Translations under genes and position numbers: made by a program | Part shown: positions 12,862 through 20,948 of the stretch, piece after piece | How the letters are laid out: every line of letters begins with the position of its first letter | Numbering within the stretch: position 1 is the stretch's first letter | Assembly (NCBI GenBank): GCA_016839445.1 | Contig: JAEOUG010000096.1 | Coordinates: forward strand, 1 to 36,478 | Source of the DNA: Candidatus Thorarchaeota archaeon | GTDB taxonomy: Archaea; Asgardarchaeota; Thorarchaeia; Thorarchaeales; Thorarchaeaceae | Reading direction: 5' to 3' | DNA length: 36,478 bases | The notes under the pieces: generated by a model | What the model was told of the DNA's origin: nothing | Databases searched by the model: none | The model's input: only the letters and a program-made list of their open reading frames with translations

Positions 12862-14091
12862 ATGACGAATCTCACAGTCGAGCAGCTACAGAAGTGGTAC
12901 AGGAACCAGCTCAAGAAGTCCTCCAAGGATTTCCTCAAGCAGGCGGAGAGGAGCTACAAGATTGTTGAGAGTGCGTTGAAGGACATCGAGGAGTTAGTCA
13001 GGGAGTTCGAAGACGAAGAAGCCGACGAACAAGATATGGCAACTTCAGTCAGATTCGCGGGAAAGGTCAAGGAGATTGTAGACGACTTCTACGTTGAACA
13101 GGAGATTACATACGAGTCCACGGAGCTCCTGCAATCGGAAATTCAGCGCTTTGTGCAAGACCTGTGGGAAGCTGGCCGCAGATGGATCAAGCGAATGGAC
13201 AAACGATACAAGACCCTTGTAAAATCGCTCGACACCTCCCTGAAGGACCTCACAAGAGAGATGAATCGAATCCAGAAACTCCTCTACGAGTACAGCTGGG
13301 TCAAGGACCTCGAGCGCATCAGGGGGAGGATTGACACACTTCATGACCTTACCTTCTCTAAGGAGGTCTTCGAGGAGCAGATAGGAACGGTCCGACAGAA
13401 GATAGGGACTGCAGAGGAGGAGTACGACAAGGCAAAGAAGGCCTACAGCGAGTTCACAGAGACCTCCAATGTTGCTGAGCTCCTAAGCCTCGATGAACAG
13501 GCCGACAGGGTTTCCAGCATCTTGCGTATGAAGCTGAACCCGCTGAAGAAGCAGGTCAAGAAGTTCCTCCAGCATGATACTGGGGTCCGCGTAGGCCCTG
13601 CTGGACAGAAGGCTCTCATTGACTACTTCGAGGATCCGTACACTGCCATTGTAGGAGAGCCCGAGGGCTATCCCGGTCTGATGGAAGGTCTGGAGGGACT
13701 CAGAGAAGCCCTGGAAAAGGACCGTCTGTCCATGAAGGACCGATTGGCACGAAGAGCCACAGAAGAGATCGATGCAATCGGTGGCGGCAGTCTTCAGGAA
13801 TTTCAGAGTCAGGCAAAGGAGATTGAGGAGAAGCGCAGAGTGTATGCGGGCTCCGATGTGTACTCAAAGAGCAAGGATCTCGAGATGACGTTGAATGAGG
13901 CAAGGAAGAACCTCGAGTACCATCGCAATGACCTGCTTAGAATCCGTGACGACATTACTCGCCAGATTGAGAAGGTCGAGGACTTCAAGTCCAGAATTGA
14001 GACAGACATTGCCAAGGCCTTCAATGAGAAGGTGAACATTCAGGTGGAGGTCTCTCTGGGGCCTCTGCTGGAGCTATGCGCTATCACGTAA
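12862..14091 (+). CDS. Coiled-coil protein (409 aa)
   Basis: Long charged heptad-like helices; complete ORF with ATG start. Confidence 0.75.
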   Translation: MTNLTVEQLQKWYRNQLKKSSKDFLKQAERSYKIVESALKDIEELVREFEDEEADEQDMATSVRFAGKVKEIVDDFYVEQEITYESTELLQSEIQRFVQDLWEAGRRWIKRMDKRYKTLVKSLDTSLKDLTREMNRIQKLLYEYSWVKDLERIRGRIDTLHDLTFSKEVFEEQIGTVRQKIGTAEEEYDKAKKAYSEFTETSNVAELLSLDEQADRVSSILRMKLNPLKKQVKKFLQHDTGVRVGPAGQKALIDYFEDPYTAIVGEPEGYPGLMEGLEGLREALEKDRLSMKDRLARRATEEIDAIGGGSLQEFQSQAKEIEEKRRVYAGSDVYSKSKDLEMTLNEARKNLEYHRNDLLRIRDDITRQIEKVEDFKSRIETDIAKAFNEKVNIQVEVSLGPLLELCAIT

Positions 14092-14107: not shown

Positions 14108-14932
14108 TTGAGGATACTCGTCACATCGAAGAAGGACCTAGCTAGTCAGACGATGAAGGACATCCTGACTGAGGAGTATGACTTCGGTGAGACCGGTGAC
14201 TCATTCGAGGGAACGCCTGTACTCTCTCTTGGGGATTCGATCCTCCTCATCACTTCAGAGAGGGACCTGATACAATGCAGTCATCTGGAGGAAACCTATC
14301 GCCCGGAGGCATTCATCTTCTGCTCCCGCCACAGGTCCGAGTCGGGACGGCCCTCGCTCCTGGTGCACAGCACTGGAAACTATGGAGAGGAGGCTGACTT
14401 CGGAGGCAATCCTCGCGAGCTATCTGTTTCAGCACCGTCTCTTGTTTCCTCAGCGCTTCGCAAGCTGTACCACGAGAGGAATGCCCGTAATCTCGAGGAC
14501 TTCGATGTGACTCTTGAGGTGACACACCACGGACCTACCAATCTAGCTACGCCCATGGTCTTTGTCGAGCTTGGTAGTGATGAAGAACATTGGAGGAATG
14601 AAGAAGGGGCCCGCGCTGTTGTGGCCGCTGCTCTAGACGCGTGCAATGTGCCCCTTGACTGTGCTGCTGCTATAGGATTCGGTGGCACTCACTATGCAAG
14701 CAAGTTCAACAAGCTTGTTCTTGAGAAGAGCCTGATGATTGGCCATATTGCCCCGAAGTATTCCATTGACGGTCTCAATGCTGAGATCATAGAGCAGATG
14801 AGGTCAAGGACTGCAGGGAAGGTTTCGCAAGCCATAATCGATTGGAAGGGGACCAATGCAGAGAACAAGGCACATCTCTTTCCCCTCCTAGAAGCCTCAG
14901 GGCTTGAGATTGTGCGAGCGAAGGACTACTAG
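14108..14932 (+). CDS. dtdA: D-aminoacyl-tRNA deacylase, archaeal DtdA/GEK1 type
   Basis: CSRHRSESG, LLVHSTGNYG, LEVTHHGPTNLATPMVFVELGS and GFGGTHYASKF motifs; TTG start. Confidence 0.92.
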   Translation: MRILVTSKKDLASQTMKDILTEEYDFGETGDSFEGTPVLSLGDSILLITSERDLIQCSHLEETYRPEAFIFCSRHRSESGRPSLLVHSTGNYGEEADFGGNPRELSVSAPSLVSSALRKLYHERNARNLEDFDVTLEVTHHGPTNLATPMVFVELGSDEEHWRNEEGARAVVAAALDACNVPLDCAAAIGFGGTHYASKFNKLVLEKSLMIGHIAPKYSIDGLNAEIIEQMRSRTAGKVSQAIIDWKGTNAENKAHLFPLLEASGLEIVRAKDY

Positions 14933-15032
14933 AGGTGACGAGTAGGTCCCTCGGGCACTCTACTATACTCCCGAAAGGCTAATGTACCGATTTGGTCTAC
15001 TCGCGACTATCGCCACCGTAGTAGGGGATGTC

Positions 15033-16016
15033 ATGCCCGCCGATGAAAAGTCCGATACCGCGGAACTCAACAAGAAGCTGGACGGAATCGCTAAGGATCT
15101 CGATGCGATACGTGACGAGTTGAAGGCAGTCTCAAGCATCGAAGACAAGGTCGATTCTCTTGAGAAGACACTTGCCTCTCTAGAGAAGATAGAGGAGTCA
15201 ATGAATGACGTAGCCACCGGAGTGAAGGAACTTGGTGGTCTTGAGAAGAAAGTGGACAAACTGAGTGACTCCACGGGCAAGCTTGAGAAGTCCATTGAAG
15301 CGGCAAAAGACTCCACCGACACTTCAGAGATTGCCAAGGGTGTCGAAGGACTTCAGAAGTCCCTTGACGAGATACTGGGCTCTCAAGAGACTGCGGTGAT
15401 CATAAAGAAGCTTGATGATCTCCTCATCCAGATTATGGATACGAACGTTCTATCAAAGAAACTTGACGATCTGCAGTCATATGTGGCAGGCTTGTCGAGT
15501 GTTGAGGAGAAGGTTGATGACCTCTCCAACAGCCTCTCGGAAACCAACGAGATTGTGTCCATAATAGTCCGGCAGCTTGATGATGTCGAACGCAAGTACA
15601 ATCAGGCCGCGGAAGTGATTACCGAGGCTGCGCAGAGGGTTGAAGCGGCAATTGCTTCAGGCGCCAGCACTGCTCCTCCGAGCAAGCCGGAGAAGAAGCC
15701 AGAGAAGGAAGAGCCGAAGAAGGTCTCGAAGGCCAGTCTGCCCTCCACGATTGATCAGATTATGAGTGACTTGATGGACCTTGTTACTCCGCAGACAGAA
15801 GCCAAGGCCATGGCTGAGTCCTTGGAAGAGGCTCGGGACCGGCTAACAACGATGATTAGCGGGCATACCCCTGTCCTGTATCAGTTCGGAACAAAGGCCC
15901 GCGAACTCAAGTCTTATCCGCCTACAGCTACACTGAATGAGAATGACATTGCTCTCTTGAGCAAGGACATCCGGTCTTGGACTTCGAAGCTGAAAGAGAT
16001 GGCAAAGAGCCAGTAA
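15033..16016 (+). CDS. Coiled-coil protein with Lys/Pro/Glu linker
   Basis: Repeated LEKKVDKLS / EEKVDDLSNSL segments, then PSKPEKKPEKEEPKK and a helical C-terminal domain. ORF extends to 14982, but ATG 15033 has an SD-like AGGGGAT. Confidence 0.7.
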   Translation: MPADEKSDTAELNKKLDGIAKDLDAIRDELKAVSSIEDKVDSLEKTLASLEKIEESMNDVATGVKELGGLEKKVDKLSDSTGKLEKSIEAAKDSTDTSEIAKGVEGLQKSLDEILGSQETAVIIKKLDDLLIQIMDTNVLSKKLDDLQSYVAGLSSVEEKVDDLSNSLSETNEIVSIIVRQLDDVERKYNQAAEVITEAAQRVEAAIASGASTAPPSKPEKKPEKEEPKKVSKASLPSTIDQIMSDLMDLVTPQTEAKAMAESLEEARDRLTTMISGHTPVLYQFGTKARELKSYPPTATLNENDIALLSKDIRSWTSKLKEMAKSQ

Positions 16017-16203: not shown

Positions 16204-17004
16204 ATGGAACTGAAGAAACATGACAGTCAACTAGCTGAGCGGATGAAGCTCCTTGACAACTCCGCAGACAAGTACCTTGCCAGAGAACTGATAGAACTCT
16301 ACGAGGACAAGTGTAAGGAATGCCAAGAGGATCGGCTCAGATGTGCCACACGTCCCGACTGCAAGGACCGCAACTTCCTGAATGCCTTGATTGAGATAGG
16401 TGTTCAGGCCGAAGACCTTCCTAGCTTCTGCTACAGCCAATATCTTGACCAAATCCGACGCTACGTGTTGGAGAAGAGGGGCAGAGGACTGAACGATCGG
16501 AGGCTTCCGATTAAGGATCTCCTGTCTACTCTTGATGTGAGTTCTATTCGACATTTCAGCACGAGATTTCGCAAGGAATGGCCGAAATTCACAAGAGCGG
16601 CAGCTGGAGATATCGTCCTGTTTGCAGGTAACGACCTGCTATTCAGATTCGACTTCTCACGAGGTGTTGTGACCATAAATCCGGTCCACAACGAGATCAC
16701 CGATCTTGAGGAATTCAAGCTGTACGTCAAGCTCTTCTCCGAGCACTATGAGCTAGCTTCGAAGGTCAAGGACCTTACACTGAACTGGTGGCTTCTCTCC
16801 ATAGAAGTGACTGGAGTGGATGCTACTGAAATGAGGTCCCTGGCGAAGAGCAGCACCGCAAAGAGCTTTGAGTCTGTATATTCTGTTGTTGAAGATGACA
16901 AGATGAAGATACAGGTTGAAGTCATGTCAGAGGGTGGCAATGACCCTCTTGAGACCGGCGAACTGCGCGATTTGTTCGAGAGAATCGTGAAGATGGCAAG
17001 CTAG
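16204..17004 (+). CDS. Uncharacterised protein with N-terminal Cys cluster
   Basis: CKECQEDRLRCATRPDC near the N-terminus; SD AGGTGG upstream; 5 bp before the giant coiled-coil ORF. Confidence 0.7.
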   Translation: MELKKHDSQLAERMKLLDNSADKYLARELIELYEDKCKECQEDRLRCATRPDCKDRNFLNALIEIGVQAEDLPSFCYSQYLDQIRRYVLEKRGRGLNDRRLPIKDLLSTLDVSSIRHFSTRFRKEWPKFTRAAAGDIVLFAGNDLLFRFDFSRGVVTINPVHNEITDLEEFKLYVKLFSEHYELASKVKDLTLNWWLLSIEVTGVDATEMRSLAKSSTAKSFESVYSVVEDDKMKIQVEVMSEGGNDPLETGELRDLFERIVKMAS

Positions 17005-17009
17005 CATGC

Positions 17010-20000
17010 TTGCTCCTCTCCGCGAGCCGCAATCATATCCATTGGTGGGATGAAGAAGTGAGTGATGAAGCAGTGACAGAAAGCATGTCCATACTAAGGG
17101 ACACTCTGGGAGTAACCGAAGTTGAAACTCGTGTTCTACTTCCGATATTCCTTGGTGGGAACATGACCGCCGGAGGGATTTCGCTCCTATCCGGAGAAAA
17201 GATGACCTCGGTCAAGAGGGCGCTGAGCCGTCTTCAGACCAAGGGCCTAATCATAGAGATCGAGGGACGCGTTCCCGTCTACCAAGCTCTTCCACCCGGT
17301 CTTTCTCTTGGCGAGCTTCTTTCGGAGAAGCTTGAGGACATTGACCGTGTGATGAAGGAAGCCGAAACCATTGTGAAGGACCGAGACGAGCAGCTAGACG
17401 CTACTCTTGAAGCTGTTATGCAAGCCCAGTCGAAGGCACTTGACCATCTACAGCAGTCTTTGGACAAGTATGAGGAGAAGGTACTGAGTCTCGTGCAGTC
17501 CCAGATTGAGGGTGTGGTCAAAACCTCCACAGGAGTCATGGACAAGATCTCCGGAGACTTGGAGAAATCCATGCATCAATTGGACAGCTCCATTGACGAT
17601 CAACTAGGCACGAAGATGAAGGAGCTGCAAGTCGAGCTTGACAAGGGTCAGACCACGCTCAGCAAAGACATGAAGAAGATTGGCAAGGACTTCGACAATT
17701 GGCTGAAGAAGGAGCGTACCACAGTACTTGCCTCTACGCAGGAATTCGAGAAGAAGTCTCGCGAGGTTGTTGTCGCTGCCCGCGATGCTGTCACTGCCGC
17801 CCTTACGGAGTCCTCAGACTCGCTCAGGTCGATTGCCACTGGGGTTTCCGAGTCACTCACTTCTATGGCTTCAACTGCATCCGACGAGGGTCTGGAAGTC
17901 CTGAACGGCGTATCCAAAGACATCACAGATTTCATCACTCACTTGGACGCCGAGCTGGCTGAATCCTACGTCAATGGACAGAAAGCGATTGATGAAGTGA
18001 TTACTCAGGCAGGTGAGATCACTGCCGAATATGGTGAGTTCGCGAGAACGAAGATTGCGGCGGCTCGCGAGATTGCTGGCTCGATTGGTGAGCTTGCGGA
18101 CTCCTGGAAGGAGGAGGTTGGGGGCTTCATGGACGTGGCATCGCAGTCCGTGACCTCCCAGTTGACACAGGTTGCGAATACAGACACGAACTACCTGGAG
18201 ATGATGAAGACCTCCTTGACATCTCACATCGACAAGGTGAACTCACAGCTTGACACCGAATATGAGGAGCTAGGGAGCCTGGCCACAACTCTGGGAAGCG
18301 ACTGCGAGACCACCCTTGGCGAGACACGGGCACTTCTGCTTGAACTGCTGCAAGGCCAAGCAGAGTCAGAAACGGAAGCATGTGACCTAGCCACGAAAGG
18401 TCTCCATGACGAGCTTGACGGTTGGGTTGCGGGCACAGTGTCTTCCATCGAGAAAACACTGAACAGCGCCGCCACGGAAATAGGTGCCATTCTTGATACA
18501 GAATCAAATGAGATGAATGAGATTGCAGATGCAATGAGCAGTCGTCTCAAATCTGCTTTCGGAACGGTGATCAAGTCCACGCAGACGAAGAACGAGGGTC
18601 TCCTTACTGCAGTCAAGACAGCAGCTAGCGAGTTTGAGTCCAGCATTGGGGAGCGACTGGCAGAGATCATTGACAATTTCTCAGGTGCCACCCAGAAGCA
18701 GGTCAAAGACTCAAAGATGCATTATGAAGGATTGCGCGACAGGCTTGACAAGCGCATGGCGAGGTCTGTGGCCAACATCACATCTCACTCTGAGAGAGTC
18801 CAGAGGGAGGTCGAGACTACAATCACTGAGCAAGTCTCGAGGATGGACCAGCACACCGAGGCCATCAAAGCCGAGTTCCACACTCACCTAGAAGACATCA
18901 CGAAGCAGTTCGTCACCTTGACCCAAGGGCTCGAAGCCACCTTCAACGGACTGGTTTCAAGCCAGACTGTCGAAGCTCGGGACCTAATCACATCCACTCA
19001 CTCTGAGTTCAAGAGTGCTCTCAGAAACGAGATGGGCAGCCTCAAGGAGGAATCCACCAAGCTCCAGCAGGAGTATGCTACCGACCTTGGAATGAAGATC
19101 GATGAGGTCACATCTTCTGTTGAAGCCGCGAAGCGTGCATTGGATGAGCTTGCTCTAGAGAAGAGGCACGAGATTGCCCTACGAATGGCCACGACACTAA
19201 GCGATCTTGACGAGGCAGTCAGAAGTACCGAGACTAGTCTGATTGAGATGGAATCGGGAACTGTCAGGTCCTTCATAGACAACTTGGCTCAGGTTTCACA
19301 GGAGTTCAATACCACTGTAACAGGTGCCCGTGAATCCATCTCTGAGAAGCTTGAAGGCGCAGGCTCTGCGGTGAAGAGCGCTCTGGAGAAGAGCTCGGAA
19401 AATGCGAAGACCGCTGCGGACTCATTCGTGGGTTCTCAGAGCGATCTCAAGCAACGGTTTTTGGCAGATACGAGCAAGAAGATGAACAGGCTTGCCACAC
19501 GCCGCGTGAAAGCCGCAGGAGAAAAGATCGAGGCCTTCAGAACGGAGCTCTCGAACCGTGAAACCGAGGGTGTGAAGGACCGGGGGAAGGCCAAGACCGA
19601 GGTTGTCAGTGCCGTGGAGAAGCGTAGATCCGAAGTCGTCAAGGCTTTCGATTCGGCTTCTGAATGGGTGGACTCCACAATGGCAAACGTTGCCACTTCA
19701 TTAGACCAGTTGGGCACCAAGCTGAAGAATGAGCTGACCCTGATAGAGAGAGGTCTTCAGAAGGCCGCTGAGGAGTCTGGAGGCTCCATACAGGAACGTG
19801 GAGAATCTGACATTGAGAGGCTGCAGGAGATCAATGTGGCCCTCCTCAAGAGCGCTGAGAACATGATAAAGGTGAAGCTCGACGAGTTTGCCGACAAGTG
19901 TGCCTCGTCACTCTCAAGAGGAAACGAAGGTCTTGTTTCCATGCCGACAAGGATCTCAGAGCAAGTTGGCGACATTCAGGAGGGCATAGATGAGAAGACC

Positions 20001-20948
20001 ACTCAGAGCTACAGCGATGTAGCTGCCGGGCTCTCTGGCAAGTTCACAGAATATGAACGGGCGGCAGAATCTGCCACAGAGGACTTCCGAAACCTCCTCG
20101 AGTCTGTCTCAATCTCGGTGACTGAGAAGCGCGACGAATCTGTTGACCTGATGGAGAAGAACATCGTAGCGGCCAACCAGCTCGCCTCGAGGAAGTTCGA
20201 AGCAATTGGACTTGAGTTCAAGACGAAGCTCAGTAGTGAAACAGCAGCGCTTCTCGGAAGCACACAGTCCAACATCGCAACCAAGAGCCTTCGTATCACA
20301 GAGGCCGTCACTGATGCCACTAATCGGACAAACGAAGACACGTCTGCGCTATCACAGTCACGAATCGAGGCACTGACATCCTTTGGTGAAAAATCCGAAA
20401 AGGCCGTGCGCAAGTGGTCGGTTGATCAGAAGAAGCAGACTGCGAAGCTCTCGGATGGAATCGTGTCGACTCTGAGTGAGGTGAAGAATACAACCAAGAG
20501 TGCTGCAGATTCGGTCTCGGCCATTCACAGACTCAGCAAGACTCTACTCAAGGCTCCGCCGAAGCGGACTTGGTATCTATCTGGCCTAGAAGAGGCATGT
20601 GCGCATGTTCTCGACATGGTCGGCAGAGCAGAGGAGTCGATAGTGGTTTCGGTACCGAACATGGAGTGCTTGGACCTCAAGCAGCTAGGAAAGGCTAAGG
20701 ATGTCCCAAGAAGGATTCTCATCTTGCCTGATACCGATGAGGCGCAGGAGACTGAGGGTGTGGATGGCTGGCGTGTCTGGCGGACCAAGACCCCTATGCT
20801 TCTTGCAGTCTTAGACGACAAGGAATTGCTCATCGGTGGCTCAAGTGAGGGAGAGAGCCCAATGGTGATTGTGTCAGAAGAGGACTCATACCTCCGTCTT
20901 TACCACGACATCCTTGGACCCCGACTGGTCGCAGGTCGCATCCGCTGA
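17010..20948 (+). CDS. Giant TrmB-like protein: N-terminal winged helix, about 1,075-residue coiled coil, C-terminal TrmB/PLD-like domain
   Basis: N-term LGVTEVETRVLLPIFLGGNMTAGGISLLSGEKMTSVKRALSRLQTKGLIIEIEGRVPVYQALPPG (TrmB-type wHTH); helical Ser/Thr/Glu/Lys-rich middle; C-term TWYLSGLEEACAHVLDMVGRAEESIVVSVPNMECLDLKQL. Alternative starts TTG 17010, GTG 17058, ATG 17085. Confidence 0.8.
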   Translation: MLLSASRNHIHWWDEEVSDEAVTESMSILRDTLGVTEVETRVLLPIFLGGNMTAGGISLLSGEKMTSVKRALSRLQTKGLIIEIEGRVPVYQALPPGLSLGELLSEKLEDIDRVMKEAETIVKDRDEQLDATLEAVMQAQSKALDHLQQSLDKYEEKVLSLVQSQIEGVVKTSTGVMDKISGDLEKSMHQLDSSIDDQLGTKMKELQVELDKGQTTLSKDMKKIGKDFDNWLKKERTTVLASTQEFEKKSREVVVAARDAVTAALTESSDSLRSIATGVSESLTSMASTASDEGLEVLNGVSKDITDFITHLDAELAESYVNGQKAIDEVITQAGEITAEYGEFARTKIAAAREIAGSIGELADSWKEEVGGFMDVASQSVTSQLTQVANTDTNYLEMMKTSLTSHIDKVNSQLDTEYEELGSLATTLGSDCETTLGETRALLLELLQGQAESETEACDLATKGLHDELDGWVAGTVSSIEKTLNSAATEIGAILDTESNEMNEIADAMSSRLKSAFGTVIKSTQTKNEGLLTAVKTAASEFESSIGERLAEIIDNFSGATQKQVKDSKMHYEGLRDRLDKRMARSVANITSHSERVQREVETTITEQVSRMDQHTEAIKAEFHTHLEDITKQFVTLTQGLEATFNGLVSSQTVEARDLITSTHSEFKSALRNEMGSLKEESTKLQQEYATDLGMKIDEVTSSVEAAKRALDELALEKRHEIALRMATTLSDLDEAVRSTETSLIEMESGTVRSFIDNLAQVSQEFNTTVTGARESISEKLEGAGSAVKSALEKSSENAKTAADSFVGSQSDLKQRFLADTSKKMNRLATRRVKAAGEKIEAFRTELSNRETEGVKDRGKAKTEVVSAVEKRRSEVVKAFDSASEWVDSTMANVATSLDQLGTKLKNELTLIERGLQKAAEESGGSIQERGESDIERLQEINVALLKSAENMIKVKLDEFADKCASSLSRGNEGLVSMPTRISEQVGDIQEGIDEKTTQSYSDVAAGLSGKFTEYERAAESATEDFRNLLESVSISVTEKRDESVDLMEKNIVAANQLASRKFEAIGLEFKTKLSSETAALLGSTQSNIATKSLRITEAVTDATNRTNEDTSALSQSRIEALTSFGEKSEKAVRKWSVDQKKQTAKLSDGIVSTLSEVKNTTKSAADSVSAIHRLSKTLLKAPPKRTWYLSGLEEACAHVLDMVGRAEESIVVSVPNMECLDLKQLGKAKDVPRRILILPDTDEAQETEGVDGWRVWRTKTPMLLAVLDDKELLIGGSSEGESPMVIVSEEDSYLRLYHDILGPRLVAGRIR

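Follow-up and report, generated by a model that had tools for sequence, protein, structure and literature searches.

Archaeal TrmB, whose domain organisation includes an extra sugar-binding half, and TrmBL2, a chromatin protein of the Thermococcales (PMC4877046), are the closest described counterparts of the protein considered here; in another group of proteins that it appears to resemble, the SMC proteins, arm lengths are constrained (PMC5344682). We carried out a computational analysis of a gene in the window, that is, the whole 36,478-nucleotide stretch of contig JAEOUG010000096.1 from a Candidatus Thorarchaeota archaeon (assembly GCA_016839445.1). The gene encodes a protein with TrmB-type domains at both ends and, between them, a rod of about 1,070 helical residues that is nearly free of proline. 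We propose, with a probability of about one half, that it belongs to a pan-Asgard family of TrmBL2-like proteins that have a long antiparallel hendecad hairpin in place of the dimerisation helix, and that would act as an architectural tether or bridge. Relatives were surveyed within the Asgard phylum, and all genomes compared are metagenome-assembled; in what follows, f numbers are family labels of genomes and L numbers designate individual loci or rods.

A hendecad rod between two TrmB-type domains

The first-pass annotation had read the gene as an open reading frame (ORF) of 1,312 codons running from TTG 17010 to 20948 on the forward strand. The open frame is real; its start is probably elsewhere. 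The orthologues begin with an ATG (M-S-D/N...) that aligns with GTG 17058 in the window, 48 bases downstream of TTG 17010, and this GTG is therefore probably the true start, giving a protein of 1,296 residues (17058-20948, forward strand). The same start is kept in the orthologues, whose lengths are 1,293-1,301 residues. All residue numbers below refer to the 1,296-residue protein and are lower by 16 than those of the earlier annotation.

The N-terminal residues 12-85 (17091-17312, forward strand) form a TrmB-type winged helix-turn-helix, matched by Pfam TrmB PF01978 with 31 bits (curated cut-off 25.6, E 2.4e-7). In profile searches it matched TrmB (3qph, E 5e-6) and TrmBL2 (5bpd, E 1.5e-3), and a comparison with an ordinary TrmB of the same genome by hhalign gave 93.5%. 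Residues 1166-1296 (20553-20945, forward strand) correspond to the first half of PF11495, Regulator_TrmB, and form a TrmB/TrmBL2-type domain that is phospholipase D (PLD)-like. Of 25 orthologues, 14 had a PF11495 match to this domain, the best with E 2.2e-5; the match in the window protein itself is below the cut-off (E 0.004) and spans positions 3-115 of the 233 in the profile, at which point the protein ends. The extra sugar-binding half of PF11495, a feature of TrmB and TrmBL1, is thus absent. In a Foldseek search the C-terminal part came out closest in fold to TrmBL2 (probability 1.00, E 3.7e-6), and PLD2, which has the phospholipase D fold, was also matched with probability 1.00. Comparison with an ordinary TrmB of the same genome gave 77.8% in hhalign (E 1.9e-5), and a profile search of the PDB with the C-terminal domain alone returned no significant relative. 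Pfam and NCBIfam scans found no ABC-type ATPase head. The first-pass annotation had taken both ends to be TrmB-type and the protein to be much longer than an ordinary TrmB, for which it gave roughly 250-350 residues; the profile and fold searches bear out the former, and the latter agrees with the five other ORFs of this genome that exceed the PF01978 cut-off, which have only 133-384 codons.

Between these domains, residues 80-1166 contain a single proline. Averaged over the family, the hydropathy of residues 101-1165 gives one sharp peak, at a period of 3.662 and 131 times the mean power; among 300 shuffles none exceeded 11.7, and heptad power does not rise above noise. The repeat of the rod is the 11-residue hendecad (11/3), not the heptad. 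The middle of the protein looks like one proline-poor helical region, as had been anticipated, and not like a string of short unrelated domains; the coiled coil proposed at the same time holds as a long helical repeat region, but not as an ordinary heptad one. Between residue 377 and residue ~1146 the hendecads stay in roughly the same register, and they do so, too, over residues about 91-310, with an offset of one residue. We divide the rod into an N-terminal arm (residues about 96-610; 17343-18887, forward strand), which has a period of 3.66, no indels among the orthologues and a register shift at about 310-390, and a C-terminal arm of roughly constant register (residues about 630-1165; 18945-20552, forward strand). 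The shift falls in a possible elbow of the N-terminal arm, residues 341-398 (18078-18251, forward strand), which is conserved at about 353-385 and contains low-confidence breaks in the AlphaFold model.

The 11-residue periodicity also occurs in apolipoproteins, and PF01442 matches the rod in five stretches with 79 bits. One could therefore imagine amphipathic helices lying on a lipid surface instead of a coiled coil. We regard this as very improbable: the proline punctuation of 22-residue units is missing, there is no signal beyond the shared periodicity, and neither the exact conservation of length nor the antiparallel charge complementarity described below would be expected of helices spread on a surface. 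Membership of the apolipoprotein A1/A4/E family itself was rejected, given the PF01442 cut-off of 90 bits and the single proline of the rod.

Fixed length within lineages

About 36 Thorarchaeota species have an orthologue, the most distant being about 30% identical, and near-full-length matches occur in most genomes of the family to which the window's genome belongs. In 25 full-length orthologues with identities as low as 32%, the only indels are of 1-2 residues and none occurs before residue 1169, which leaves the rod without any; in a second set of 32 loci, with rod identity falling to 28%, the rod was again free of indels. The one exception in the Thorarchaeota set is the isolate OWC3, which carries a midpoint-centred duplication. 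A first genome scan with a single protein sequence had found no relatives; of 196 genomes from the phylum, 121 matched a profile of the C-terminal domain, among them 36 of the 45 high-quality ones, and the match was nearly always at the end of a very long ORF. We read 40 of the matched regions, and all complete ORFs except L105 (rod length 87) consisted of a winged helix followed by a long rod; the long rods had peak periods of 3.635-3.685. Rod lengths across the Asgard relatives with both end domains range from 477 to 1,851 residues. In a second Thorarchaeota paralogue group the rods measure 854-856 residues in most members despite 20-24% identity, and four rods from four families, all linked to the partner gene introduced below, measure 1,069-1,074 residues. 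Rod length is often fixed within a lineage and variable between lineages. The central rod block was also searched for in the other families, where only the f4 rod L106 gave a convincing and centrally placed match.

The second paralogue (L136, L137, L138, L159-L167) is found in several Thorarchaeota genomes, with rods of 741-742 residues in two, and was not found in the genome of the window. The rod gene of record CP070658 (L062) has N-masked stretches, which probably explain its missing neighbours and truncated match.

Mirror symmetry about residue 619

If two arms pair in antiparallel fashion, opposite charges should meet when residue i is paired with residue c-i, and this was scored for all centres c against hendecad-shuffled nulls. 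In the Thorarchaeota rod the best of all centres was 619 (z 4.1, P 0.043 after scanning), and the same centre was best in each half of the alignment and in the window sequence alone. For the relatives, rod ends were set in every case by the two domain profiles. Over 35 rods of 477-1,851 residues, the common best centre lay -12.0 residues from the midpoint with a summed z of 5.7, the null maxima over all offsets being 3.7 at 95% and 4.1 at the largest. This offset was also found separately in partner-linked (4.0) and unlinked rods (3.6), and it stayed best when each sequence cluster was represented by a single rod (3.75, the 95% null being 3.68); when the window was left out, the top four of 401 offsets were all between -12 and -14. 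In a hold-out of 18 rods fetched later, which is not fully independent since some of its members are about 20% identical to rods of the first set, the three best offsets were -12.5, -14.5 and -13.0 (4.5, 4.5 and 3.5). An offset of about -12 thus recurs over 53 rods of the family, hold-out included.

Conservation follows the same symmetry. With 11-residue smoothing, the Thorarchaeota conservation profile mirrors itself about residues 619-621 (r 0.67), which is the best of all centres and a value reached by none of 100 shuffles. The most conserved stretch of the rod, and the putative tip of a hairpin, is residues 600-682 (18855-19103, forward strand), which includes the mirror centre 619 (bases 18912-18914); the lowest entropy along the rod, 0.78 bits, is at residues 617-649. 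An AlphaFold2 model of residues 97-1296 consists of long helices with breaks at 181-196, 341-398, 611-629, 856-867 and 1043-1052, and these breaks, at low confidence, pair about residue 619. The break of the C-terminal arm at residues 856-867 (19623-19658, forward strand) lies opposite the possible elbow in the N-terminal arm.

Taken together, the charge, conservation and register evidence at the midpoint leads us to conclude that the two arms pair antiparallel, and such pairing appears well supported by the sequences. Since a change in one arm would put the arms out of step, whether in a hairpin or in a dimer, the pairing would also explain why the rods have no indels. A parallel coiled-coil dimer, forming a single extended rod of about 160 nm and possibly filaments, would by comparison be an improbable arrangement. 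Coherent hendecads over about 1,070 residues would suit it, and fixed rod length is known in intermediate-filament and myosin rods. It predicts, however, no mirror symmetry, no register break at the midpoint and no duplication centred there. The parallel charge stagger of filament assembly gave no significant peak, its highest z of 3.4 falling short of the 95% null maximum (3.75), and parallel pairing of the arms, run over the rods as a control, never exceeded 3.0.

The conserved tip is relevant to a further explanation, namely that the protein is a TrmB-type transcription regulator with the rod as its signalling stalk; something sensed at the tip, or by the PLD-like domain, would change how the head binds DNA. 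The tip being the most conserved part of the rod would fit this, as would the canonical TrmB domain order of the head and the fact that archaeal TrmB proteins are regulators (PMC4877046). We nevertheless find it rather unlikely, because the sugar-binding domain of TrmB and TrmBL1 is missing, with only the first half of PF11495 matched, and because a stalk of this kind needs no strictly fixed arm of hundreds of residues whose length varies fourfold between lineages.

Turn or through-going helix at the midpoint

Antiparallel pairing could come about within one chain or between two. In the latter case, an Sso10a-like homodimer, two full-length helices of about 160 nm would cross at residue 619; each end would combine the winged helix of one chain with the other chain's C-terminal domain, and the dimer would link DNA sites separated by as much as 160 nm. 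This arrangement predicts the same charge and conservation symmetry and has a precedent in Sso10a1, a winged-helix protein that forms an antiparallel coiled-coil dimer and bridges DNA (PMC4941522). The hendecad register was followed through the midpoint of 38 selected rods. Elsewhere along the rods its mean cosine was 0.82 (sd 0.04), and at the predicted centre only 0.28. A through-going helix has no need of a family-wide register break exactly at its midpoint, nor of the Pro- or Gly-rich loops that several lineages have at the centre; in L124 and L108 a Pro-rich or low-complexity loop lies exactly at the predicted position.

The rod of OWC3 (L063:9833-14554) is informative in this respect. 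It contains a diverged tandem duplication of a 232-residue central rod block, centred on about residue 621, with 65% identity between the copies, and it keeps the charge symmetry at an offset of -12.5. The new midpoint, residue 779 of L063, has the sequence SDTGASSST and a register break of -99 degrees, and there is none at the two old midpoints. A break with a Ser/Thr/Gly linker at a newly created midpoint is, again, not what a through-going helix would call for. Because of the family-wide loss of register at the centre and the break at the new midpoint of OWC3, we favour the hairpin within one chain. The single helix of about 160 nm suggested in the first-pass annotation is probably wrong: given the antiparallel charges, mirrored conservation and loss of register at the midpoint, a hairpin of about 78 nm is likely.

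Several observations weigh against the within-chain hairpin, or against the tests on which it is based. In the orthologue group of the window the register is nearly unbroken at the midpoint (14 degrees in the window itself), and in this group an Sso10a-like antiparallel dimer is therefore possible; in most partner-linked rods the change is 3-38 degrees, and the Thorarchaeota tip has no clear turn sequence. The first 35 rods gave a strong Gly/Pro peak at -1 to -2, which the 18 hold-out rods lacked and which is not relied on. The AlphaFold confidence is low (predicted local distance difference test score, pLDDT, 62.8; predicted template modelling score 0.28). Charge covariation on antidiagonals is weak (the z of 3.0 at 618.5 ranks second among all centres), and residue covariation along antidiagonals carries no mutual-information signal. 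Finally, applied to real SMC proteins the charge test proved insensitive, one of eight giving P < 0.05, and it thus lacks a positive control. Weighing both sides, we hold the homodimer to be the chief alternative, possible but less likely than the hairpin.

Several lineages have other sequences in place of this tip. The midpoints of f2 and related rods (L099-L103, L128, L135, L156) carry an aromatic-plus-basic motif, for example GFFWLGKKKKYKAR or AFKALFAGKHKKYK; its ligand might be a membrane or an acidic partner. The partner of the tip may thus differ between lineages. A globular hinge-type insert was not found at the midpoint, where the sequence is helical with at most a short break.

Partner gene and genomic neighbourhood

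Directly upstream of the rod gene lies a gene for a 266-residue protein (16204-17004, forward strand) with five invariant cysteines: C37-x2-C40-x6-C47-x5-C53 and C76 are unchanged in 33 sequences. This partner is directly upstream of the rod gene in 30 of 30 Thorarchaeota loci that show both. Linkage within Thorarchaeota means little, because the whole region around the rod gene is syntenic there; linkage across distant families is informative, and the partner stands beside the rod gene, directly upstream, in nine other family-level lineages (f3, f4, f6, f11, f12, f14, f16, f24 and f26), which with Thorarchaeota makes ten. In the examined f2, f9, f13, f18 and f21 loci it is not adjacent and is located elsewhere. 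It is nearly always single-copy. Its predicted fold (AlphaFold pLDDT 80) had no match in the PDB with E < 1e-3. In the f2 genomes L139, L147 and L150 the partner is followed by a low-proline gene of 418-433 codons in the place of the rod gene.

Further upstream, a 344-residue coiled-coil protein (14982-16016, forward strand), which has conserved synteny in Thorarchaeota, is encoded between the partner and a D-aminoacyl-tRNA deacylase gene (14108-14932). The latter is preceded by a gene for a 409-residue protein (12862-14091, forward strand) that is syntenic in Thorarchaeota with 55-72% identity and has no match in Pfam or NCBIfam. A mobile or viral origin of the rod gene was rejected, as the gene stands in conserved synteny and no relative was present in viral contigs. 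A link to loss of SMC was likewise rejected, SMC_N matches being present in 44 of 44 Asgard genomes sampled.

Discussion

The hairpin model can be described as follows. The chain would run out for about 523 residues, turn at residue ~619 and return in register. With about 0.15 nm per residue this would make a stiff arm some 78 nm long, with the winged helix and the C-terminal domain brought together as one head at its base. The head would bind DNA, probably in dimeric form like TrmB and TrmBL2; proteins of the TrmB family bind DNA as dimers or tetramers. The arm would present the conserved tip, and perhaps the 266-residue partner, at a fixed distance, and the protein would act as a chromosomal tether or bridge of fixed reach and not as a sugar-responsive repressor. 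The computation itself yields the domains, the hendecads, the constant length, the mirror symmetry and the gene pair, whereas pairing within one chain, DNA binding and dimerisation by the head, the ligand of the tip and the cellular role are inferences. The DNA-tethering or architectural role put forward in the first-pass annotation is plausible and fits with TrmBL2, the closest fold, being a chromatin protein; there is no specific support for the cytoskeletal role that was named beside it. It is tempting to speculate further that the Asgard ancestor possessed ATP-independent, SMC-shaped chromosome organisers made of a TrmB head, a lineage-locked hendecad arm and a Cys-rich partner; we offer this extension as tentative.

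No description of Asgard TrmB rods, hendecads or long coiled coils was found in the literature searched, which did not extend to subscription-only work, including hendecad surveys. The end domains and each of the structural principles are known; what appears to be new is their combination, its phylum-wide spread and the locked arm lengths. Should the model be correct, Asgard archaea, to which the eukaryotic host lineage is more closely related than to any other known group, would keep a widespread family of DNA-linked hairpin rods, which protein-family libraries hold under no name beyond its end domains. The family would also illustrate how a coiled coil, growing under the constraint that both arms change together, can give a small DNA-binding regulator a mechanical or architectural function. 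The mirror symmetry predicts exact contacts, of residue i with residue 1238-i. Arm length, at about 35-135 nm depending on the lineage, constitutes a natural experiment on the purpose of length.

Several known systems share some of these features. The likeness to TrmB and TrmBL2 lies in the same order of winged helix, helical segment and PLD-like C-terminal domain, and they are the best matches in both sequence and fold. Their helical segment is, however, a short dimerisation helix, whereas the rod family has 477-1,851 hendecad residues in an apparently antiparallel arrangement, and the extra sugar-binding domain of TrmB is absent from the rod protein. With SMC, MukB and Rad50 the family would share an antiparallel hairpin that places both end domains at one end; it also has a conserved tip and constrained arm lengths, and the low-confidence AlphaFold model resembles MukB, condensin and JetC. 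Unlike SMC proteins, the rod protein has neither an ATPase head nor a hinge domain, and its repeats are hendecads instead of heptads. Sso10a, a crenarchaeal winged-helix chromatin protein, likewise combines a winged helix with an antiparallel coiled coil (PMC4941522), but it is of only ~10 kDa, its coiled coil is intermolecular and it has no C-terminal domain. Finally, hendecad coiled coils and apolipoproteins A/E have the 11-residue periodicity in common with the rod, which differs from them in its one nearly uninterrupted register, its folded ends and its almost complete lack of proline.

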